NCBI RefSeq assembly: GCF_000758705.1
Contig: NZ_CP009287.1
Location: forward strand, 2,108,001 to 2,172,000
Reading direction: 5' to 3'
Origin: Paenibacillus graminis
GTDB taxonomy: Bacteria > Bacillota > Bacilli > Paenibacillales > Paenibacillaceae
DNA length: 64,000 nt
Shown here: positions 13,207 to 27,499 of the stretch, piece after piece
How the letters are laid out: each line of letters opens with the position of its first letter
Position numbering within the stretch: the stretch's first letter is position 1
Program-made: the position numbers and the translations under genes
The notes under the pieces: generated by a model
Seen by the model: the letters and a program-made list of their open reading frames with translations, nothing else
Database searches by the model: none
Told to the model about the DNA's origin: nothing

Positions 13207-13370
13207 GCTTTGTCCGGGGGCAACTCTATCCTTTCGGCGCATAGCTAAAGCAACTGAGAAGCGGCTCTAAACCTTTGGGCTTAAGCCTAAAGTGTCTGTT
13301 TTTTGTGCAATTAAAAAGAGCTGTACAAAGTGCAATTAAATGCCGGAAAGCAAAACAAAACAAAGCGAAA

Positions 13371-13407
13371 CCCAAAAGCACCGTCCGTTTGGGACGATGC
13401 TTTTGGG
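13371..13407 (-). terminator. Terminator of the secreted-protein gene
   Basis: CCCAAAAGCA (13371-13380) pairs with TGCTTTTGGG (13398-13407), with an inner GTCC/GGAC stem and a GTTT loop. On the minus strand it follows the stop at 13424 by 16 bp and leads into T-rich sequence. Confidence 0.8.
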
Positions 13408-13423
13408 TGTGCAGACTCTGAAG

Positions 13424-13951
13424 TTATGGAGTGTACTGCTGTACGATCGAAGTCACTTTGCCATCCTGAATTGTGATGTGGTAAGGGGATTGGCTCAGGT
13501 CGATAATGCTCTTTTTGTCGAATTCGCTAATGAACTTATGAAGAGGAATGCCCTCATTCCAGTTGATGTCCAGATCCTCCATGTGCCCGGTATGATCGTA
13601 AATCTGCATCGACACTGCAGCATTATCGGCAATAGGATAGGTAGTAAGGGAGTCACTGTCATTTACGATATAGTAACCATCCGGTGTGCCGCCAAGCTCA
13701 GCCGCTGCATCAGGCTCGCGTTCGGCGAAGATGCGGTCGGCTTCAGCGCCTTCATACCATCCGATCTGGTCGGCGGTCATGACCGTATGCCCGTCTTTGG
13801 ACTTCAGCGCGTGTATGTAAACCGTCAATTCCTGACTTTTATCACCGCTTTGCGCTTCTGCGCGTGTACCTACTGTACTTGCCGTAGTCACAAGGGAGAG
13901 GAGCAGCAGAACCAGAGCAGGAAAGAGATAAACCGATTTTCTTTTGAACAT
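13424..13951 (-). CDS. Secreted protein of unknown function
   Basis: A 175-residue protein with a Sec signal peptide: basic MFKRK, a hydrophobic core to about residue 27, and a probable cleavage after TRAEA near residue 33. The mature part is acidic and contains IGWYEGAEADRIFAERE, GYYIVNDSD and a C-terminal ITIQDGKVTSIVQQYTP. I do not recognise a named domain. AAGGGGGA lies upstream of the ATG, and a good terminator follows. It is transcribed divergently from the YhgE-like gene, with no sign of an operon partner. Confidence 0.8.
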   Translation of the reverse strand: MFKRKSVYLFPALVLLLLSLVTTASTVGTRAEAQSGDKSQELTVYIHALKSKDGHTVMTADQIGWYEGAEADRIFAEREPDAAAELGGTPDGYYIVNDSDSLTTYPIADNAAVSMQIYDHTGHMEDLDINWNEGIPLHKFISEFDKKSIIDLSQSPYHITIQDGKVTSIVQQYTP

Positions 13952-14229
13952 GTAGAATTCCCCCTTATTCTAAATATGACACGGTATACGTCTATATACC
14001 TAATTACCCTTCACTGTATTTCTCAAACGGGTATTATACCTTTATAAACGTAGATCGGGAAAAAATGTTGCAAAAAGTTTCAGGCTTGGGACATGGGAAA
14101 ATCAGACAGGCCGGCAGTGTGAAATATCCGGCTGGCTGACGGGTGAAACTTGTACCTCCTTCTCATTTAAAAAGGAGCGTTCGAGGGCATATTAAACTAT
14201 TCAGATTTCAGCATAGAGGTGTGGTAAAC

Positions 14230-16908
14230 ATGGCGGCAGTATGGCGGATTTATAAAAAAGATTGGCTGGGCCTGTTCAAAGCGCCGGTAGCCCTGTTGTT
14301 GATAGCAGCACTTGCGCTCCTTCCCTCAGTCTACGATTGGGTGAATGTGGCTGCGGTATGGGACCCCTACAGCAATACATCCGGCATTCAAATTGCCGTG
14401 GCCAGTGTGGATCAGGGAGCTGCTGTCGATGGCAAGAGCTTCAACATCGGAGATGAGGTGCTGGAGAGTCTGCGGAGCAACAAGTCGCTGGGCTGGAGGT
14501 TCACGGATGCCGAATCGGCAGCGCGGGGGGTGCAGCGCGGGGATTATTATGCCAGCATCGTCATTCCGGCAGAATTCTCACAGCGGATGGCGGGGGTTCT
14601 CGAAGGGGAACTTGTGAAGCCTCAGGTGGATTATACCGTTAATGAAAAAATCAACGCGATTGCACCCAAAATTACGGCGAAAGGGGCTTCTACGATTACT
14701 GCGCAAATCAGTGAGCGGTTCACGGAAACCCTTAGCAGGACGGTGCTGACGGCCCTCAGCGCCATCGACCGCGAATTCCAGGCGGAGCTGCCGGTTATCC
14801 GCAAGGTGGAGCAGGGGCTGTTCCAGCTGGAGGCAAGCCTGCCGGAGATTGAAAAGGCAGGGAGACTGGTGCTCAAGCTGCAGCAGGACTGGCCGCAGAT
14901 TGCGGATTCGGCCGGAAGGATTGCTGCGCTTACGGATAAGCTGCCGGAAGTGGAGCAGGCGGGCAAGGCGGCCGGGCTGCTGGATGAGCACTGGGGGCAG
15001 ATCAGCGATGCCGCGGGCAGGCTGCAGGAGCTGCAGGGCAGGCTCCCGGATCTGGCCCGTGCGGCGGAGCTGCTGTCCGGCCTGGATACTGATTTCAGCC
15101 GGGTGGGGGAGGTCCTGGACCGGGCCTCGGACAGATTGGAGGAGGCCGGAAAGGTTGTTGCTGCGGCTGCCCAGGCCCTGCCGCAGACCGACCGGATCGC
15201 TGCAGCGGGGCCTGCCTTTGGGCAGGAGCTGCAGCAGTATCTGGCGCAGAACCGCGCGGCCTTCACCGCGGTTCCGCAGGTGCTGCAGCAGAATCTCTAT
15301 CTGCTGCAGCAGAATGCCGACAGCGCAGCGCTGCTGGCCAGCCAGCTCGCGGAAGGCACCGCGCCGCCGGACGCAGCGGCGGCTTCCCGGCTGCAGCTGG
15401 CCGCTGACCGGCTGACCGCCGGAAGCGGCCAGCTGCAGCACACGGCGGCTCTCTTCGCCGCCGTGAACACCCTCGCGCCCGGCGCCGTGCCGGGCAGCGA
15501 GCTCCGCGCCCTGGCCGGGGCGCGGGCCTCTTGGGCCGCCGGCGCTGCACAGGCGGCCCGCCTTGCCTCCGCGCTGCGGGGCGGCGGCGGGCTGGACCCC
15601 GCCGCACTGGCGCAGCTTGGCAGGGATTCCGCCAAGGGCGCAGCGGCGCTGGGCGGAATCCTCGCGCGCTACAGCGCGGAGGGGCAGTCTGCGCTGCAGG
15701 GCACGCTGCAGCAGCTGACATCCGCGGCGGGGACCGCCGCCACGGCCTTGCAGCAGGCGCCGCAGCGGCTGGCTGCGCTGGGTGCGGTGCTGGATGAAGC
15801 GGGTACCGCCATCCAGTACGGGCAGACCGGCCTGGCCGCCTTGCGGGACAATCTGCCTGCAGTAGCGGGCGAGGTCAGCGCGGCGGCATCCGGCATGAGC
15901 AGCAGGCTGGCAGCGTTCAGCGGCTTCGTGACGAATGTGCTGCCGCGCATTCAGAATGGGCTGCCTGCTGCCGGAGAAGACATTCATGCGGCGGCAGAAT
16001 TCGCCCGGAATGATCTGCCGGGGGCGGAGGAGAAGTTCCGCCGCGCGTCGGAGTGGATTACCGCCGGCCTTCCCCGGGCAGACGAAGGGGTGAACCGGGC
16101 GGCCGGGCTGGTGCGGAATGATCTTCCCGCCCTGGAGCATGCCGTCCGCCGCGCCGCGGATACGGTCCGCGAAATCAAGCGGGAGGTCAATCTGGAGGAA
16201 ATCGCCCAACTGCTGGGCGGGGATATCAAGGGGACCAGCGATTTTCTGGCCAGCCCCGTAGTTCTGAAGGAAAAGGCACTGTATCCCATCCCCAATTACG
16301 GATCGGCGATGACACCGTTTTACGTAGTGCTGTCCTTGTGGGTAGGCGGCACCCTGCTGATTTCCCTGCTGCGGACCGCCGTTGATACCGCTGGAATCCC
16401 ATACCGGCGGTACCAGCTTTATTTTGGCCGCCTGCTGACTTTTCTTACCGTAGGCATATTTCAGGCTCTGATTGCGGTATTGGGCAATATATATTTGCTG
16501 AACTGCTATGTTGCCGACAAGCTGTGGTTCGTGCTGTTTGCCGTCCTGATCAGCATTGTTTTTGTGACGATTGTATTTACACTGGTCTACGTCTTCGGCA
16601 ACATCGGCAAAGGCATAGCCATCGTGTTCATGGTGCTCCAGTTCTCCAGTTCGGGCGGGACTTTTCCAATCAGTACCACAGGGCGCTTTTTTCAAATCCT
16701 GAACCCGTTTATGCCCTTTACCTATGCCATCAGTCTGCTGAGAGAAGCCGTTGGCGGCATTCTGCCGGAGGTTGCTGTCCGTGACGCCCTGTATCTGGTT
16801 CTGTTCGGTATACTCGCCCTGGTGCTGGCGCTTACCCTCCAGAAGCCGCTGGAGCGGTTCATCCGGCGTGCGGCAGAACAGGCAGAGGCGTCCAAGCTGA
16901 TCTCCTAA
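14230..16908 (+). CDS. yhgE: YhgE/Pip-family large membrane protein
   Basis: 892-residue protein of the YhgE/phage-infection-protein family. It has an N-terminal membrane segment (about residues 18-40), a long extracytoplasmic Ala/Leu/Gln-rich region of about 600 residues that should be helical or coiled coil, and a C-terminal block of about five membrane segments like ABC-2 permeases (GTLLISLLRT through LALTLQKPLERF). Family members serve as phage receptors or export-linked proteins; the role here is unknown. ATG 14230 has AGAGGTG upstream and gives the family start; an earlier in-frame GTG at 14143 is unlikely. Bases 15340-15800 are much more GC-rich than the surroundings. Confidence 0.8.
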   Translation: MAAVWRIYKKDWLGLFKAPVALLLIAALALLPSVYDWVNVAAVWDPYSNTSGIQIAVASVDQGAAVDGKSFNIGDEVLESLRSNKSLGWRFTDAESAARGVQRGDYYASIVIPAEFSQRMAGVLEGELVKPQVDYTVNEKINAIAPKITAKGASTITAQISERFTETLSRTVLTALSAIDREFQAELPVIRKVEQGLFQLEASLPEIEKAGRLVLKLQQDWPQIADSAGRIAALTDKLPEVEQAGKAAGLLDEHWGQISDAAGRLQELQGRLPDLARAAELLSGLDTDFSRVGEVLDRASDRLEEAGKVVAAAAQALPQTDRIAAAGPAFGQELQQYLAQNRAAFTAVPQVLQQNLYLLQQNADSAALLASQLAEGTAPPDAAAASRLQLAADRLTAGSGQLQHTAALFAAVNTLAPGAVPGSELRALAGARASWAAGAAQAARLASALRGGGGLDPAALAQLGRDSAKGAAALGGILARYSAEGQSALQGTLQQLTSAAGTAATALQQAPQRLAALGAVLDEAGTAIQYGQTGLAALRDNLPAVAGEVSAAASGMSSRLAAFSGFVTNVLPRIQNGLPAAGEDIHAAAEFARNDLPGAEEKFRRASEWITAGLPRADEGVNRAAGLVRNDLPALEHAVRRAADTVREIKREVNLEEIAQLLGGDIKGTSDFLASPVVLKEKALYPIPNYGSAMTPFYVVLSLWVGGTLLISLLRTAVDTAGIPYRRYQLYFGRLLTFLTVGIFQALIAVLGNIYLLNCYVADKLWFVLFAVLISIVFVTIVFTLVYVFGNIGKGIAIVFMVLQFSSSGGTFPISTTGRFFQILNPFMPFTYAISLLREAVGGILPEVAVRDALYLVLFGILALVLALTLQKPLERFIRRAAEQAEASKLIS

Positions 16909-16992
16909 CACCATTGTCTGGTACTGGAACACCTAATTCTTTCCTGTCAACCTGTGTTCAACCTGCCAATGAACATTGACCTGTGCCATACG

Positions 16993-17046
16993 AGAACCTA
17001 AGATATAGGAATATCTGGATTATCGTTCAAATTTATGGTTCTTAGG
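16993..17046. promoter_or_regulatory. Inverted repeats before the receptor gene
   Basis: CCTAAGA (16997-17003) and TCTTAGG (17040-17046) form an inverted pair 36 bases apart just before the start at 17058. AGATAT-AGGA-ATATCT (17001-17016) is a perfect local palindrome, and AGAACC/GGTTCT overlaps the outer pair. AimR-type receptors bind long inverted sites, so this may be an autoregulatory operator; function is inferred. Confidence 0.4.
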
Positions 17047-17057
17047 ACGGTGTTTAT

Positions 17058-18455
17058 TTGCAATTGAAAAATACTATACAGGCAAAACTTGACGCATACT
17101 TGAAGATAGAAGGCATTACCATCAATCAGTTTGCCGGAATATCGGGTGTGAACTCCGGTACGCTCAGCAGTATTATTAATGGAAACCGTCCCGTCGCCGT
17201 GAAGCAGCTGGACCGGATTACAACGGGTATGGGACTTCCCGAAGGCGAATTGTATGAATTATATATAGATGAATATGTTGTCCGTTCTACCCCTGACTGG
17301 CGGCGGATGGGACCTTTTCTGCAGCGCTGTGCAGAGCTGGACAAGCTGGAATGCATCCGGCAGGTCGTCCGGACCATTATGGATAATATATCCTATGCCC
17401 AGGCGGTATTTGAAATGGGAGAGGAATGGTTCGCACAAGGCAAACGCCAGGCGGCTGCGCTGCTGTACGAAGGTGTGGCGGAAAGTGAAAAATATCAGCA
17501 CTCAGAACGGCTGGCCTTATGCCAATACCGTTTGTTCAAGATTGCACTGGGAAAAGATCAGGAAGCCAACCTGCGTGCGGCGATGCATTTTGAATATTTT
17601 GTGGAACGTCTGGATGAGGTGGACCAGTTGAATGCGCTGAAGGATTTGGCAAACATTTACGCTTCCCTGCACCGCTGGAACAACGTTGATGTCATAGCGG
17701 AGGCGATGGGGCGCAAGGCCTCCATTCAGTATCAGAATAGATACCATAAAGTCAGCCGCCGTGCGGTCTCTAAAGAAACCGGCAGGCCTCTGTGTTTCTA
17801 TATCCTCTATTCCCATCTGCTTCGTTCGGCTGTCTGTGCTGAACGCGGGGACTACGGACAGGCCCTCCAGTATGTCTCGCGTTATTCCGATTTCAGCTGG
17901 GTCCAGGAGAGAACGGAGGAGGCCCGGCAGATCATGGAACAGTTTGGGGAATGGGCCGGGGCCAATACATATCTGTACCGCCTGATGTCAGGAGAGACGG
18001 CTGTGCTTGCGGACTATGTTGAATTCATCAGCACCAGAGAGGGCGAAATTATTACGGGCCTGACCAAAATCATACAAGCGGCCAACCGCTTTGGCTTGAA
18101 CGTGGATCCTATTATTGAATGCTTCGAGTCCCGTGTGGAATTCAAAGAGCAGCGGACCCGGATGGGGAAACGGAATGTGCAGGTCACCGAAGACCAGTCT
18201 GCGGTTCTGTTATATGAGCTGTCTGTGTATTATTTAAAAACCCAGAGAGTCCACAGGGGCCTCGTTTATTTATTCCAGAATCTGGACCTCTCTGTTAGAA
18301 TGAACAGTGACAGCGGTATTGTTGGGTGTGTAGCATTATTTGAGCAGTACAGACATCTCAGCTCCGTCGAAGACCAGGAAAGATATAAAATTCTAATTGG
18401 CGAGGTGCAAAAGAGTAATGAAAAGAAAATTGGCTCTGCTGCTGGCAATAGGTAG
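17058..18455 (+). CDS. AimR/AloR-like peptide receptor regulator
   Basis: Predicted DNA-binding peptide receptor of 465 residues. The N-terminus is a Cro-like helix-turn-helix (INQFAGISGVNSGTLSSIIN, about residues 17-36), closely resembling the HTH of AimR/AloR receptors. The remainder is all-helical in pairs, fitting tetratricopeptide-like repeats that bind a signalling peptide (for example AVFEMGEEWFAQGKRQAAALLYEG, then ERLALCQYRLFKIALG). Start TTG 17058 is taken because it directly precedes the HTH; the ribosome site is weak. Its last 38 bases overlap the small exported-peptide gene at 18418, the hallmark arrangement of receptor and signal pairs. What it controls is unknown; the gene just upstream is YhgE-like. 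Confidence 0.75.
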   Translation: MQLKNTIQAKLDAYLKIEGITINQFAGISGVNSGTLSSIINGNRPVAVKQLDRITTGMGLPEGELYELYIDEYVVRSTPDWRRMGPFLQRCAELDKLECIRQVVRTIMDNISYAQAVFEMGEEWFAQGKRQAAALLYEGVAESEKYQHSERLALCQYRLFKIALGKDQEANLRAAMHFEYFVERLDEVDQLNALKDLANIYASLHRWNNVDVIAEAMGRKASIQYQNRYHKVSRRAVSKETGRPLCFYILYSHLLRSAVCAERGDYGQALQYVSRYSDFSWVQERTEEARQIMEQFGEWAGANTYLYRLMSGETAVLADYVEFISTREGEIITGLTKIIQAANRFGLNVDPIIECFESRVEFKEQRTRMGKRNVQVTEDQSAVLLYELSVYYLKTQRVHRGLVYLFQNLDLSVRMNSDSGIVGCVALFEQYRHLSSVEDQERYKILIGEVQKSNEKKIGSAAGNR

Positions 18456-18552
18456 CATTTTTTTGGCTATAGAAGCCCGGGCTTTGGTGATGCAATCCGC
18501 TTCAGCCCATTCGAGCATTGAACCTTTGACGCATGGAATCGGTGCCGAATAG
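18418..18552 (+). CDS. Candidate signalling pre-pro-peptide, 44 residues
   Basis: A tiny gene that overlaps the end of the receptor gene in another frame. ATG 18418 has GAGGTG about 10 bases upstream and the frame ends at TAG 18550-18552. The peptide has a typical Sec signal: MKRK, then LALLLAIGSIFLAIEARA, with possible cleavage after ARA or SASA. The tail is HSSIEPLTHGIGAE. By analogy with Phr, AimP and the Paenibacillus AloP peptides, the active form would be a 5- to 10-residue piece from this tail; THGIGA, with the last Glu trimmed, is my best guess. No similar tool-based evidence is available, so the function is inferred from architecture. Confidence 0.65.
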   Translation: MKRKLALLLAIGSIFLAIEARALVMQSASAHSSIEPLTHGIGAE

Positions 18553-18990
18553 GTCCAAGACTGATGCAGCATGAATTTTTTTCTACAGCTTGTCGGGCGG
18601 TTAATTGTTCAAAAAAAGCCACCCAAACCTCTCTTTCACAAGCATTTGGGGCATTGCTGTACACCCACGTGTGTTTGAGGATTTGTTTTAGACTGAAAAA
18701 TAAAGTGTTAGACCGGGAGAATAAAGTTGTAGACTGAGAAAATAAAGTACTTGAAATAATTTAGAGATAAGTTAATGACAGGGGCTGGGAATTGTGGAAA
18801 ATGGGAGAATCTTAGGAATCGCATATAATGTAATTCCCTTTTAAGAAAGCAATCTAAGCTAACGGGAATTAGTTCAATAAACCAAAGGGCAGCTTGCGAT
18901 CTGGCAGCTGCTCTATTTTTATTAAGCTAAGGGCAGGATAGTGTGACACTTTTATTATAGGCTACAGTTTTATTGCAGCGTCGACCGGAC
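18553..18990. other. Gene-free stretch after the peptide gene
   Basis: About 440 bp with no convincing gene. A 65-residue leftward open frame (18467-18664) lacks a ribosome site and overlaps the peptide gene. The only structured element is the threefold 21-bp repeat at 18689-18750. Confidence 0.5.
18689..18750. repeat. Three tandem copies of a 20-21 bp unit
   Basis: Units start at 18689, 18709 and 18730 and read TAGACTG-A-rich-ATAAAGT with few changes. Closely spaced repeats of this kind occur at the ends of transposons that use multi-site transposase binding (for example IS21 family), so this may be an orphan end. No transposase is found nearby. Confidence 0.55.
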
Positions 18991-19062
18991 AAAAAACGCA
19001 AGCCGAAAGGGAGTATGCCTGCTCCTCAACCACTCGGAGTGATGGGCATCTCTCTTTCGGCT
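18991..19062 (-). terminator. Terminator of the detoxification operon
   Basis: AAGCCGAAAG (19000-19009) pairs with CTTTCGGCTT (19054-19063) with further imperfect pairing inside. On the minus strand it overlaps the stop of the TetR gene and runs into TTTTTT. Confidence 0.8.
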
Positions 19063-19064
19063 TG

Positions 19065-19754
19065 TTATTCCATTCCATGATCCAGCTTTAACGTTCCCTG
19101 CAAGATAACTTCCAAGCCCCAAAGAAAACGTTCGTCCTTCGGAAGATCACCGGAAAACAACTCGCTTTTATGCGAATGGATGAACGGGAACCGTGAAGCG
19201 TCGGCGGATAAATAAGCTTCCTTCATCAATGTAAACGATCGCTTCTCGTTTTTGGACCACGAGACATGTTCAAAAGCCGAGGAAGCGGCGTACATCAATA
19301 ACAAATCCATCGCCCATGCTGCCGATGCGGGCTGGATGCCGCTGGCCGCCAACTGCTTCAGCAAATATTCGGAGAGATCCAGGGAATGGGGACCCAGGGG
19401 TGTCGTGGTCAAGGCAAGCTCGGCTATGCCGGGGTCCTTATAGAGCACTTGCTGATAAGAGAGCAGTGCTGCAAACAGGTTGCTCTTCCACGATCCATCG
19501 TCCGTATCGGGCAATTCGACATGGGTCAGGCCATAGTCCAGCACATAGGAGCTTAATTCCTGCAAATCCTTGACATAGACGTAAAGTGACGAAGCTCCGG
19601 TATCCAGAGCTTTGGCCACCTTTCGCATGGAAAGACCCGAGATTCCCTCCTCTCTCAACAAAAGAAATGCTTGTTTGACAATGACTTCCCGACTGAGCGG
19701 CTCCTTAGCGGGTCGGGCACGGCGGCTGACAATAGTTCGATTGGCATTATTCAT
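19065..19754 (-). CDS. TetR-family repressor of the detoxification operon
   Basis: 229-residue one-component regulator. The N-terminal HTH is at SREVIVKQAFLLLREEGISGLSMRKVAKALDTGASSLYVYVKD (about residues 21-63), which is TetR-like. The C-terminal part is helical and fits a tetracycline-repressor-type ligand domain, the substrate being unknown. It is the last gene of the leftward operon MFS-FMO-MBL-TetR, 54 bp after the MBL gene, so it probably represses its own operon through the palindromes at 23308-23343. Confidence 0.85.
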   Translation of the reverse strand: MNNANRTIVSRRARPAKEPLSREVIVKQAFLLLREEGISGLSMRKVAKALDTGASSLYVYVKDLQELSSYVLDYGLTHVELPDTDDGSWKSNLFAALLSYQQVLYKDPGIAELALTTTPLGPHSLDLSEYLLKQLAASGIQPASAAWAMDLLLMYAASSAFEHVSWSKNEKRSFTLMKEAYLSADASRFPFIHSHKSELFSGDLPKDERFLWGLEVILQGTLKLDHGME

Positions 19755-19808
19755 ACTTTTTTTATATCATGATTGCAGTTAATAGTAAAATCACCGGCGG
19801 CAATCATT

Positions 19809-20567
19809 CTAGTCTTTCTCCCCACGCGAAGCGAGCGTGGTAATCGATTGATTGACATCCGTCTCCACTATGCCTCCGTGGTAACAGATGATCTTCCGGA
19901 TATCGAATGCGGTCAATTTTTTCAGCGAACGGTAGGCTTCCGGCAAATCGGGCGTTTGCGCTGCATTCGGTCCTTGCAACTGACCGCCCCGAACGACCAT
20001 CGCATCGCCGGCGATCAGCGTCTTGCTGTCCGGATGATAAAGGCTGATGTGACCGGGAGTATGCCCCGGCGTATGGATCACGATAAATGCTCCTGCGGCA
20101 TGCAAGGGTTCACCTTCAGCAATCGAATGATCGATGCGAATGCCGTTTCTTGAAAAGTTGGCCCCGAACGATTCGAGAATCTGCGGCAGAGGCTTGAGAA
20201 GCGGAAGTTCCCCGACAATATAAGGAGTATCGTCGGAATGAGCAAAAACTTCGATTCCCGGATTGATTTCCAGTATCTGCGGGAGATTGCCGATATGATC
20301 GATGTCTTGATGGGTGATAATAACACCGCTCAACATCTCCAGCGAAACGTCCGCAGACGCCAACTGTGCTGTCAAATCTTCCATCATCCCCGGCATCCCC
20401 GTATCAACCAAGTAATGGGTATCTCCCGATGAGATCAAGGTTGGCGTAATGGTCCATACGCCTCCGCCGGGCATCCCGGGCACATTCAGACTCAAGTCGA
20501 GCGTCGTCAATTTTGTTTTCATGGTCATTTTTTTCGCTGGCGGCAACATCGCGATCCCGCAGGACAT
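19809..20567 (-). CDS. Metallo-beta-lactamase-fold hydrolase
   Basis: 252-residue enzyme of the MBL superfamily. Metal ligands are visible: a variant first motif THQDIDHIG (HxDxDH in place of HxHxDH), then HTPGHTPGH and GDAMV, and a late H in CYHGG. The Asp in place of the second His is seen in some family members that act on lactones or thioesters; the substrate is unknown. Start is uncertain: ATG 20567 has AAGGAG 14 bases upstream, while an internal MTMKTKLTTL start gives a more family-like N-terminus. It lies 42 bp after the monooxygenase gene. Confidence 0.8.
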   Translation of the reverse strand: MSCGIAMLPPAKKMTMKTKLTTLDLSLNVPGMPGGGVWTITPTLISSGDTHYLVDTGMPGMMEDLTAQLASADVSLEMLSGVIITHQDIDHIGNLPQILEINPGIEVFAHSDDTPYIVGELPLLKPLPQILESFGANFSRNGIRIDHSIAEGEPLHAAGAFIVIHTPGHTPGHISLYHPDSKTLIAGDAMVVRGGQLQGPNAAQTPDLPEAYRSLKKLTAFDIRKIICYHGGIVETDVNQSITTLASRGEKD

Positions 20568-20609
20568 GCTGCCAGCTTCGCTCCTTTTCGTATAAAGGCA
20601 ATAAATCGA

Positions 20610-21770
20610 TTATGGGTTTATAAAGGATTTCATCAGGTCGCCCAGCTTAGCCGCGGCGTTATCGGAAAAAAAGAGTTCCATGTTCGCCTTGGTTTCCGCT
20701 GCGACGGCACCGGCGTAGTCGAACATCTTCTGTTCATACTGCCGCACAGCCGTATCCAGCTCGTCGTGGTTTATAAGGGAAAGCGCAAGCTCCGCGCCGT
20801 CCAGCATCGCCAAGTTCGCGCCAGCCCCGGCAAACGGCGACATGAGATGCGCGGCGTCCCCGATCAGTGTAACGCCCGCTCTGCTCTCCCAGGTATGCGG
20901 TACGGGTAACATATAAATCCGCCGTGGCGTGATGGCTCCATTAGCGCAAGAGATGTATGGTTTCAACTCATCCGCCCAGTCTGCAAACAGGGCTAACAGT
21001 TTAGGCTTTGCTTTCTCTGGCTCGTCGTAGGGGATATCCACGCTCTCCAAAAAATCGCGTTCCGCTTGAAATCCCAAATACACGCGAATCCGTCCGTCCC
21101 CGTTCATTTGCGCAATCATTCCTTTTCGGTCATCCAACGCATAAACGGTACCCGGGCCGTTAAAAGCGGCAAGCCCGGGAGAATGATTCGCTGCATCCAA
21201 AATGTTCAGTTCGATCATACTGACCCCGGAATACTCGGCCTTTGCCTCGCTCACCAATGGTCGAATACGGGAGAACGCCCCGTCTGCCGCCACGACCAGG
21301 TCCACGACATCCTTCTGTCCGTTTTCGAAATGAAGGGCATATTGACGATCACCGACAGGGACCGCCTCCAAACATTTGTATCCCCATTGAATCGTATCGG
21401 GTCGCAGCGAGTCGAGCAATAAGTCGCGGAGGACGGTGCGGTCGATCTCGGGCCGTGAATATTGAACTGAATCCGGGGCTTGATCGGCCGTATCTTCTTG
21501 ATAAACCTTGCCGTTCTTGTCAACGATTTTGCTGCTTTGCCCCTCAAACCGGCATATTTCGTAAAACGATTCGAGCAGACCGGCCGCTTGCAACGCTTTT
21601 TGACCGGAATCCGTTTCGAGATCGAGCGTTCCTCCCTGCTGACGTTCGTAACGGGAAGCTTCGCCTTCATACACGACAGGGCTGTAACCAGCCATTTGCA
21701 ACACGCGGGCAAGCGTAAGCCCGCCGGGTCCTGCGCCGACAATAGCAATTCGTTTCGATGAATGGTTCAT
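20610..21770 (-). CDS. TetX-like FAD-dependent monooxygenase
   Basis: Flavoprotein hydroxylase of 386 residues. The FAD-binding GxGxxG is at VGAGPGGLTLARVLQ (residues 11-25), the DG-type motif is VVAADGAFSRIR, and the second FAD motif is LIGDAAHLMSPFAGAGANLAMLDG. Residues GGTLDLETDSGQKAL and the C-terminal QMFDYAGA resemble the tetracycline-inactivating TetX group, so it may oxidise an aromatic antibiotic or toxin. Similarity is from memory, and resistance is not shown. It sits between a DHA2 exporter and an MBL hydrolase under TetR control. Confidence 0.82.
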   Translation of the reverse strand: MNHSSKRIAIVGAGPGGLTLARVLQMAGYSPVVYEGEASRYERQQGGTLDLETDSGQKALQAAGLLESFYEICRFEGQSSKIVDKNGKVYQEDTADQAPDSVQYSRPEIDRTVLRDLLLDSLRPDTIQWGYKCLEAVPVGDRQYALHFENGQKDVVDLVVAADGAFSRIRPLVSEAKAEYSGVSMIELNILDAANHSPGLAAFNGPGTVYALDDRKGMIAQMNGDGRIRVYLGFQAERDFLESVDIPYDEPEKAKPKLLALFADWADELKPYISCANGAITPRRIYMLPVPHTWESRAGVTLIGDAAHLMSPFAGAGANLAMLDGAELALSLINHDELDTAVRQYEQKMFDYAGAVAAETKANMELFFSDNAAAKLGDLMKSFINP

Positions 21771-21834
21771 TTGTCATCACTCCCAAAGTCAGTTTGCTCT
21801 TATTTTCTCTACAATGGATTGAAGCATGAGGAAT

Positions 21835-23244
21835 TCAAAGCTGTTTTTCTTTTTGGAGGAACAGACTGACCAGCAAAGCCAGTCCGGCTACTCCGGCCGT
21901 AATCCAGAACGTATGGCCGAATGCGATGCCCAGGTCAGCCGATGCATCGGCTGACAAGTGCTTCAACTTCCGCGACAAGTACGCCGTCGTAATCGTTATG
22001 CCAAAGGAGGACATAATCTGCTGGGCCGAAGTCGTGATCGGCGTCACCCGGCTGACCAGTTCCCGCGGTGCCAGCTTCAGAATATGGGAGTTGATTTGCA
22101 TCAGCGTCAAACCTTGACCAAGTCCGACAAAAGCAAAGCTGATCAACAGATAAACGGATCCGGTCTGGGCCGAAATCTGTGTCAGGGCGAGCAAGGCTCC
22201 CGACAATGAGCTAATTCCCACGATAACTACCGGACGGGTGCCATATTTATCAAACAATTTGCCGCCTATATTAATTCCTATGGTGGACATAACGGCTTGT
22301 GGAATAACGTACAAGCCAGCTTCAAATGGCGATAGTCCTTTAATCTGCTGAAGATACAACGGGAAGAGAAGCAGGCTGCCGAACAAGGCGATTTGATTCA
22401 GCCAGGCAAGAATCGCTCCGTGAAAAAACGGAAGCGAACGGAAAACTCGCAGTTCCAGCAGCGGCTGCTTTTGCCTGAGTTCAACAACGATAAAAAGGAG
22501 CAGCGCCGCGGAGCCTAGCGCCAGCGAAGCCAAAGCCGGCCCGTCCGACCAGCCTTTATCGCCTCCTTGATGAATACTGAATACAAGCGAGGCAAAGGCT
22601 ATAGGAGCAAGGAGCGCTCCTTTCGCATCCAATTTCATTTCCTTGCTCGGGTTTGTTGCCGGAAGAAACTTGAACGCCATGAAGAAGGCAAGCATGCCGA
22701 CCGGCACATTGATAATGAAGATCCAATGCCAGTTGACGTATTCAATCAAGGAGCCGGATAAAATGGGGCCCAAGATGGGGGCCAGTAGCATCGGAATGCC
22801 CAATATCCCCATAATCGATCCCCGCTTTTCGGGTGGAGCTATTCGGAACGTTGTCGCGATCCCGATGGGAGCAACCATCCCTCCGCCTAACCCTTGAATG
22901 ATCCGATAAACAATCAGTTGCTCGGGTGTTTGGGCAAGCGTACATAATACCGAACTAATCACAAACAACACGATGCTTGATAAAAATACTTTTTTCGCCC
23001 CGAATCGGTCAGAAAACCATCCGGCCAAAGGAATGACGGCAGCAAGGGCGAGGGTGTAAGCGGTAATGACCCATTGAATGGTTCCAAGTGTGGTGCCGAA
23101 ATGGTCGACGAGCTTGGGAATGGCAACATTCATGACCGTGCTGTCCAAGATGACCAGAAACATGCCGCTGGCAATAGCCAACAATGTCGGAAGAATTTGT
23201 CCGATCGAAAACTCCGATGGAACGGGACGCGCATGATTGGTCAA
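21835..23244 (-). CDS. DHA2-type (EmrB/QacA) drug exporter
   Basis: Major facilitator transporter with about 14 membrane segments and 469 residues. It contains the N-terminal LDSTVMNVAIPKL segment, motif A-like GWFSDRFGAKK and motif C-like GIPMLLAPILGPILSG. I start at TTG 23244 because AAAGGAG lies 10 bases upstream; an ATG at 23265 would put this site inside the coding region. It is the first gene of the operon and probably exports the compound that the flavin enzyme acts on. Confidence 0.85.
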   Translation of the reverse strand: MTNHARPVPSEFSIGQILPTLLAIASGMFLVILDSTVMNVAIPKLVDHFGTTLGTIQWVITAYTLALAAVIPLAGWFSDRFGAKKVFLSSIVLFVISSVLCTLAQTPEQLIVYRIIQGLGGGMVAPIGIATTFRIAPPEKRGSIMGILGIPMLLAPILGPILSGSLIEYVNWHWIFIINVPVGMLAFFMAFKFLPATNPSKEMKLDAKGALLAPIAFASLVFSIHQGGDKGWSDGPALASLALGSAALLLFIVVELRQKQPLLELRVFRSLPFFHGAILAWLNQIALFGSLLLFPLYLQQIKGLSPFEAGLYVIPQAVMSTIGINIGGKLFDKYGTRPVVIVGISSLSGALLALTQISAQTGSVYLLISFAFVGLGQGLTLMQINSHILKLAPRELVSRVTPITTSAQQIMSSFGITITTAYLSRKLKHLSADASADLGIAFGHTFWITAGVAGLALLVSLFLQKEKQL

Positions 23245-23307
23245 AAAGGTCACTCTCCTTTCCATGTTAGTATCGATCTGCTTCCTTGAGACACATTAGT
23301 TATATCA

Positions 23308-27249: not shown

Positions 27250-27499
27250 AGGCGAATCATCAGAGAACACCATATTCAGCATTGGGGCTATTGCCCCTCG
27301 GGCTGCCGAGGGATTTCAGGATTAAGCTAACTACTTATTATATGAAGTCTACGGAATGACAATTCGAATACCGCGCTGTCCCAGCTTCTCCAGCGGATTG
27401 CGATGCAGATCATTGAAGAGAAGGCCGGGATCACGGTAGAATATGAATGGGTAACCGCAGGCGAATAACCACTAAATCGTAATCAAAGGATGAGTATTG
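27250..27499. other. Intergenic region with a gene-end remnant
   Basis: Bases about 27350-27469 read as the end of a protein (NTALSQLLQRIAMQIIEEK then VEYEWVTAGE, stop TAA) without a start. Its base use is GC-richer than the genes to its left and resembles that of those to its right, so it may mark the edge of the inserted AT-rich block. The parent gene is not recognised. Confidence 0.4.

Follow-up and report, generated by a model that had tools for sequence, protein, structure and literature searches.

The systems closest to the locus studied here are the AloR-AloP pairs of Paenibacillus polymyxa, a family that was defined in strain ATCC 842 and whose short open reading frames encode 32-50 amino acids, according to Voichek et al. 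2020 (PMC7425212). The same paper gives the C-terminal six residues, SHGRGG, as the mature form of AloP13, and it calls a second cut conceivable for some other peptides (AloP4, 9, 15 and 16). A Spo0E-like gene lies directly downstream in six P. polymyxa Alo systems, an arrangement that is frequent, not defining. Two further papers also treat Alo terms (PMC10075063, PMC9765709). In the Rap subfamily the helix-turn-helix (HTH) domain has been lost, as PMC12700828 describes, which sets Rap-Phr pairs apart from the receptor presented below, where the HTH is present.

Our analysis concerns a window of 64,000 nucleotides, by which we mean the whole stretch of DNA analysed (G000:C1:2108001-2172000), in the genome (G000) of a Paenibacillus soil bacterium, which consists of one 7.17-Mb contig. 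The locus in this window is very probably a bicistronic AloR-AloP quorum-sensing unit, that is, a receptor-pheromone pair (Table 1). It resembles the P. polymyxa pairs, as described in PMC7425212, in the HTH and TPR-like build of the receptor, in the short downstream or overlapping pro-peptide with a hydrophobic N-terminus, in the HGxG motif of the tested SHGRGG peptide, in its occurrence in Paenibacillaceae, and in the presence of several systems per genome, with six full-length receptors in the window genome. It differs from them in having no adjoining Spo0E-like gene, in its synteny with either yhgE or sec175, in a conserved paired promoter element, and in a peptide gene that went undetected in 16 of 25 syntenic relatives. 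We regard the locus as a previously undescribed member of the known AloR-AloP family, unusual in how well its surroundings and promoter are conserved; the examined parts of the Alo literature do not describe it, and supplementary receptor lists may include it. A literature search for AloR together with YhgE gave no match, and a search for the peptide strings matched only the SHGRGG paper (PMC7425212).

Table 1. Positions of the features discussed, numbered from the first letter of the window
Feature	Position	Strand	Description
sec175	13424..13951	-	175-aa putative secreted protein, beyond yhgE; adjoins aloR in 10 clade members without yhgE
yhgE-like gene	14230..16908	+	YhgE/Pip family membrane protein; TIGR03061 and TIGR03062 above cut-off
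aloR promoter, sigma-A type	16976..17004	+	TTGACC, 17 bp, TAAGAT; consensus scan
Paired element	17010..17038	+	AATATCTGG-11-AATTTATGG; candidate AloR operator, between -10 box and ribosome site
aloR	17058..18455	+	TTG start, 465 aa; putative intracellular peptide receptor and transcription regulator
aloR domains			HTH at about residues 7-57; TPR-like helical repeats at about 66-464
aloP	18418..18552	+	44 aa, MKRKLALLLAIGSIFLAIEARALVMQSASAHSSIEPLTHGIGAE; signal-like N-terminus, tail LTHGIGAE
Predicted mature peptide codons	18529..18549	+	THGIGAE (or THGIGA); from the sequence, with variants in relatives

The receptor and its relatives

The first-pass annotation had described a 465-residue regulator with HTH and helical repeats, overlapping a 44-residue frame that ends in LTHGIGAE, and both were recovered at the same coordinates. 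The closest species-named relative of the receptor is a P. jilunlii protein (94% identity), while another NCBI protein reaches 97%; relatives at E<=1e-3 numbered 1,040 among 8,000 scored candidates, and 83 of 120 listed homologs were aligned with the window protein. The AloR-type homology proposed in that annotation was borne out: over 99% of its length, the window receptor is 41.4% identical (E 6e-109) to a plasmid-encoded receptor of P. polymyxa ATCC 842, the relative used for this comparison. The gene of the plasmid receptor overlaps by 35 bp a gene for 43 amino acids with a hydrophobic start. By sequence comparison, the window receptor is an AloR homolog. A search for AloP13/AloR13 in 100 genomes of the genus returned four weak matches (E 0.23-0.80), of which two, L056 and L059, had no adjoining AloR and the other two fell within reading frames 333 and 370 aa long.

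Profile searches matched the receptor to Pfam HTH_3 and HTH_26, both below cut-off (HTH_3 at 16.5 bits against 23), and to PHROG regulator families at E 9.5e-5 and 6.8e-4; a Pfam search of the receptor gave no TPR match. The structural model has HTH helices at residues 7-57, followed by a TPR-like superhelix at 66-464 (mean pLDDT 87.5). RRNPP receptors were among its structural matches without ranking above unrelated TPR proteins, and in Foldseek against the PDB the single match at E<=0.001 was MalT. As modelled, the C-terminal repeats are TPR-like and constitute the predicted peptide-binding domain. The only strong viral structural match was the BFVD model S5MC02 (Foldseek E 6.3e-14, TM 0.64 by query).

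The loci are those that match the window receptor best, so the counts given here describe near relatives only. The 77 receptor hits were reduced to 60 by removal of duplicates; the tree and the tail counts use 59 of these, without a partial receptor of 349 aa. In the midpoint-rooted tree of these 59 receptors, the window belongs to a group of 25 with moderate support (92/79), referred to below as the clade.

The receptor had also been called AimR/AloR-like. The AloR part of this label fits better than the AimR part: the relatives are receptors of Paenibacillaceae, no phage context was found for the window locus, unlike the AimR-AimP arbitrium systems of Bacillus phages, and one phage record matches it at 27%. 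Membership in arbitrium was rejected, since all 25 clade members have yhgE or sec175 as chromosomal neighbour and the tested flanking genes belong to metabolic, transport and regulator families. The phage record, KT151957.1 of Brevibacillus phage SecTim467, carries at 67468-68790 an AloR-like protein, 27% identical over 95% of the query and annotated as a putative DNA-binding protein. In a profile search of PDB chain sequences, NprR-NprX and PlcR-PapR were absent at E<=1, and the nine best matches were HTH proteins, aligned in the HTH part.

The promoter and its paired element

The promoter scan is weak when taken alone, giving 5 sites in the region against 3.6 expected in shuffles. The arrangement TTGACC-17-TAAGAT is nevertheless common to seven aligned orthologs between yhgE and aloR (with TAATAT in one of them), and it is followed in them by AGGAATATCTGGAT...GTTCAAATATATGG, where conservation is strong, and then by the ribosome site. 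Here lies a paired element with the consensus AATATNTGG-11-AATATNTGG, its copies 20 bp apart, which begins 5 bp past the -10 box. With 1 and 2 substitutions allowed, a spacing of 10-12 and an equal span for the clade and the others, the pair was found in 23 of the 25 clade aloR promoters and in none of the 35 other aloR promoters, among which one belongs to the 349-aa partial receptor. A narrower first element scan gave 21/25, and the wider span 23/25 and 0/35; the combined promoter-plus-element pattern matched in 21 of the 25 clade members.

The 23-mer CTAAGATATAGGAATATCTGGAT, which overlaps the paired element, occurs with up to 3 mismatches exactly once per genome in all eight genomes searched, always before the syntenic aloR, and its reversed control had 0 matches in the same genomes. 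With up to 2 mismatches, the loose paired pattern was matched 70 times in the eight genomes and its reversed control 42 times; eight of the 70 matches are aloR sites. In the window genome, 1 mismatch separates the aloR site from the pattern, and the same holds for one other place, which falls inside a long open frame (665 codons), as does its counterpart in G033 (673 codons). Several further matches of the loose pattern recur across genomes, and a second real target may be present among those that remain.

Considering this position and distribution, we think it rather likely that AloR binds the AATATNTGG pair and regulates its own operon. The first-pass annotation had named two candidate targets, the regulator itself and the upstream YhgE-like gene, and the element, present in nearly all clade promoters and in none of the others, favours the former. 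It is also possible, though in our opinion doubtful, that another regulator binds the pair, or that the pair is a constant part of the core promoter, and that AloR acts elsewhere, at sites too diverged for these scans to recognise. Such a reading draws on the closeness of the element to the -10 box, where AloR is only a candidate for the bound protein, and on some excess of the loose pattern elsewhere over its control; at the same time, a single 23-mer site in each of eight genomes would be odd for a general regulator, and the pair is absent from all 35 other aloR promoters. The recognition helix bears on both readings. L017 and L047, which alone in the clade lack the element, have R instead of S at residue 38, which is S in the other 23, together with other changes in the helix, and three receptors outside the clade have S38 yet lack the element. 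Because element and HTH changed together in one evolutionary event only, their link gives modest support to autoregulation, and the same singularity leaves room for another binding protein.

The 64-nt 5′ leader is no more prone to folding than shuffled sequences (z 0.80), which favours a DNA site over an RNA site. Nor did Rfam, when a folded RNA leader was considered, give any match at 16900-19100 at gathering scores. The upstream palindrome TTTTGAACCGTTCAAA was considered as a second operator: an exact copy is present once in each of five of the eight genomes (G037, G050, G072, G078 and G096), always before aloR, and there is none in the window genome or in the two others searched.

Neighbouring genes and the output of the locus

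All 25 clade members hold aloR at the same locus, with yhgE as the upstream neighbour in 15 and sec175 in 10. Control of the yhgE-like membrane protein in cis, as the output of a genuine AloR-AloP pair, would suit the 15 members where yhgE precedes aloR with a gap of about 150-170 bp. However, aloR is kept in the 10 relatives where sec175 takes the place of yhgE (absence being scored beside aloR only), which weakens the first-pass suggestion of YhgE as a target. Moreover, yhgE lies upstream in the same direction, so that the aloR promoter cannot drive it, and no paired element was seen by eye in the aligned upstream regions of yhgE at eight loci. We consider this output improbable.

The yhgE frame of the mechanical list starts at 14143, and similarity to relatives begins near the ATG at 14230; an extra stretch before this likely start, at about 14105-14170 of the window, is absent in most aligned relatives. 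The sec175 gene is divergent from yhgE, has no NCBIfam match and is 62-80% identical in the 10 relatives where aloR adjoins it. In the mechanical list it is hidden by a longer antisense frame (13340-14047, + strand). On the other side of the locus, genes of TetR, metallo-beta-lactamase-fold, FAD-binding and MFS type occupy 19065-23265 (- strand), between aloP and the gene of a GDSL lipase at 27497. The stretches examined in ten relatives contain none of these four genes, and the block is perhaps a strain-specific insertion.

The tested Alo13 system has an adjacent Spo0E-like gene as its output (PMC7425212), whereas the window locus has none. A Spo0E-like gene as adjacent output was rejected here, since none lies within 160 kb. 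Such genes are present in the genome, where tblastn returned nine receptor hits: six correspond to full-length receptors, two to the pieces of a remnant (5577341-5578097) and one to a copy with stops at 433522. Four of the seven Spo0E-like genes lie beside other Alo receptors or a remnant: those at 6676670, 857930 and 434099 are 3′ of the receptor or remnant on the same strand, and that at 6738079 is about 255 bp upstream of a receptor. At the remnant G000:C1:433522-434206, the Spo0E-like gene still stands beside the broken receptor.

The output gene of the window locus is not an adjacent Spo0E-like gene, and yhgE is unlikely. A best candidate site in its own promoter would not by itself account for an output. 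Since the tested Alo13 acts via a gene type that is missing next to this locus, the locus can show what else Alo systems control.

The peptide gene

The aloP gene is read in a different frame from aloR and shares with it 38 bp (18418-18455). The mechanical list of open reading frames puts the start at TTG 18397 (51 aa), seven codons upstream of the ATG. The first-pass annotation had supposed that so short a gene could be missed in annotation; the gene is indeed easily missed, but real. We prefer the ATG at 18418 because an ATG sits 35 bases before the receptor stop in all seven orthologous loci, and starts at the same distance recur in further relatives. These seven loci are those of the window, P. 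jilunlii, two further species (89-90%), P. helianthi, Paenibacillus sp. HW567 and S150.

The predicted conservation of the small frame was confirmed, as the 44 codons are intact in all seven loci, with no stop and no frameshift. Taken over the whole frame, pooled pN/pS of the seven orthologs is 0.41; the overlap has 0.59, the part outside it 0.38 and the last 12 codons 0.27, while the two other frames of the same DNA, taken as controls, have 1.02 and 1.76. Judged from this substitution pattern, aloP is a genuine coding gene under purifying selection. The tails are THGIGAE in four orthologs, THGVGAE in two and SHGTGLD in one.

The product has a basic-hydrophobic start and the tail SSIEPLTHGIGAE, with a hydrophobic segment of about half its length; hydrophobicity was scored on a simple scale, and the N-terminus is described as signal-like. 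In principle, such a product could be a small membrane or leader protein with no signalling role, in keeping with its hydrophobic segment and with the 33% of shuffled downstream regions that also contain a small hydrophobic frame; hydrophobicity alone thus means little. With the HG tail the picture is different: small hydrophobic frames ending in this way were found at 29 of the 59 full-length receptor loci (28 with HGxG and one with HGG), against 0.27% of 5,900 shuffled downstream regions. Given this recurrence, the likeness of the tail to the functional AloP13 peptide, and the stronger constraint on the last 12 codons than on the entire stretch outside the overlap, we regard a non-signalling product as quite improbable, even more so than the cis control of yhgE. 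Not every member of the family has the HG tail, because the ATCC 842 plasmid peptide lacks it and ends in QGYIGGA. Although short frames are common, with 82 of at least 30 aa overlapping 14000-22000, a chance frame is hardly conceivable in view of its retention in seven of seven orthologs, its low pN/pS beside the control frames and the rarity of HG-tail frames in shuffles.

In the window genome, an HG-tail peptide frame stands beside five of the six full-length receptors, and none was found at the receptor at 6675294. Conservation among the seven orthologs ends soon beyond aloP, and a terminator-like stem and T-run can be recognised by eye 3′ of aloP in L041, L042, L043 and L044, weaker in L039 and broken in L045 and the window; for these reasons, the operon probably consists of aloR and aloP alone. 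Behind the broken stem, the window has near-repeats TAGACTG...AATAAAGT (18625-18760).

Proposed mode of action

In regard to the mode of action of the proposed receptor-pheromone pair, the analogy with Alo13 suggests that the pro-peptide would be exported by Sec and cleaved before the THGIGA(E) tail, so that secreted C-terminal fragments would derive from HSSIEPLTHGIGAE of AloP. We infer that THGIGAE or THGIGA would align with the published AloP13 peptide SHGRGG. The first-pass annotation had mentioned trimming of Alo peptides at both ends, which does not agree with the tested AloP13, since this yields the C-terminal six residues (PMC7425212); its THGIGA, with the Glu removed, is possible but not required, as THGIGAE needs one cut. 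By the same analogy, an oligopeptide permease would re-import the peptide, which would then bind the TPR-like domain and alter DNA binding by the HTH. AloR would bind the paired AATATNTGG element just 3′ of its own -10 box, and the peptide level would feed back on aloR-aloP. The peptide THGIGAE/THGIGA, the receptor, the candidate operator and the relatives in which a peptide gene is or is not detectable form a testable set.

Receptors without a detectable peptide gene

An HG-tail aloP is present in nine of the 25 clade members and was not found in the other 16, the search extending from about 110 bases upstream of the receptor stop to 330 downstream of it, a span that a moved or very divergent gene would escape. 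All 16 members without a detectable aloP have the paired AATATNTGG element. In the 14-species peptide-less branch the median dN/dS of the receptor is 0.194 (91 pairs), compared to 0.163 (21 pairs) in the 7-member peptide-bearing branch, a comparison made without four of the 25 clade members (L017, L047, L046 and L019). By this measure, the receptor of the peptide-less branch is under purifying selection.

In L046, which has no HG-tail aloP, an MKRK start lies 35 bases before the receptor stop and is followed by an early stop; we read this small frame as a relic of aloP. Peptides ending in HG[IMV]GAE were found ten times in 25 genomes, six of the matches being known aloP genes. The remaining four, in genomes without aloP, were dismissed, as they are open frames of 11-17 codons with no signal.

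The locus thus offers a case of a receptor seemingly outliving its own signal gene. Tentatively, the conserved unit here may be the receptor rather than the receptor-peptide pair, in which case a peptide-less AloR might eavesdrop on the peptide of another species or locus, or act peptide-free, and its control might reach little further than its own promoter and some hidden output. In four of the loci without a detectable aloP (L023, L027, L030 and L033), tandem units bearing palindromes around TGTAATCGAAAAACCGATTACA lie directly 3′ of the receptor genes.
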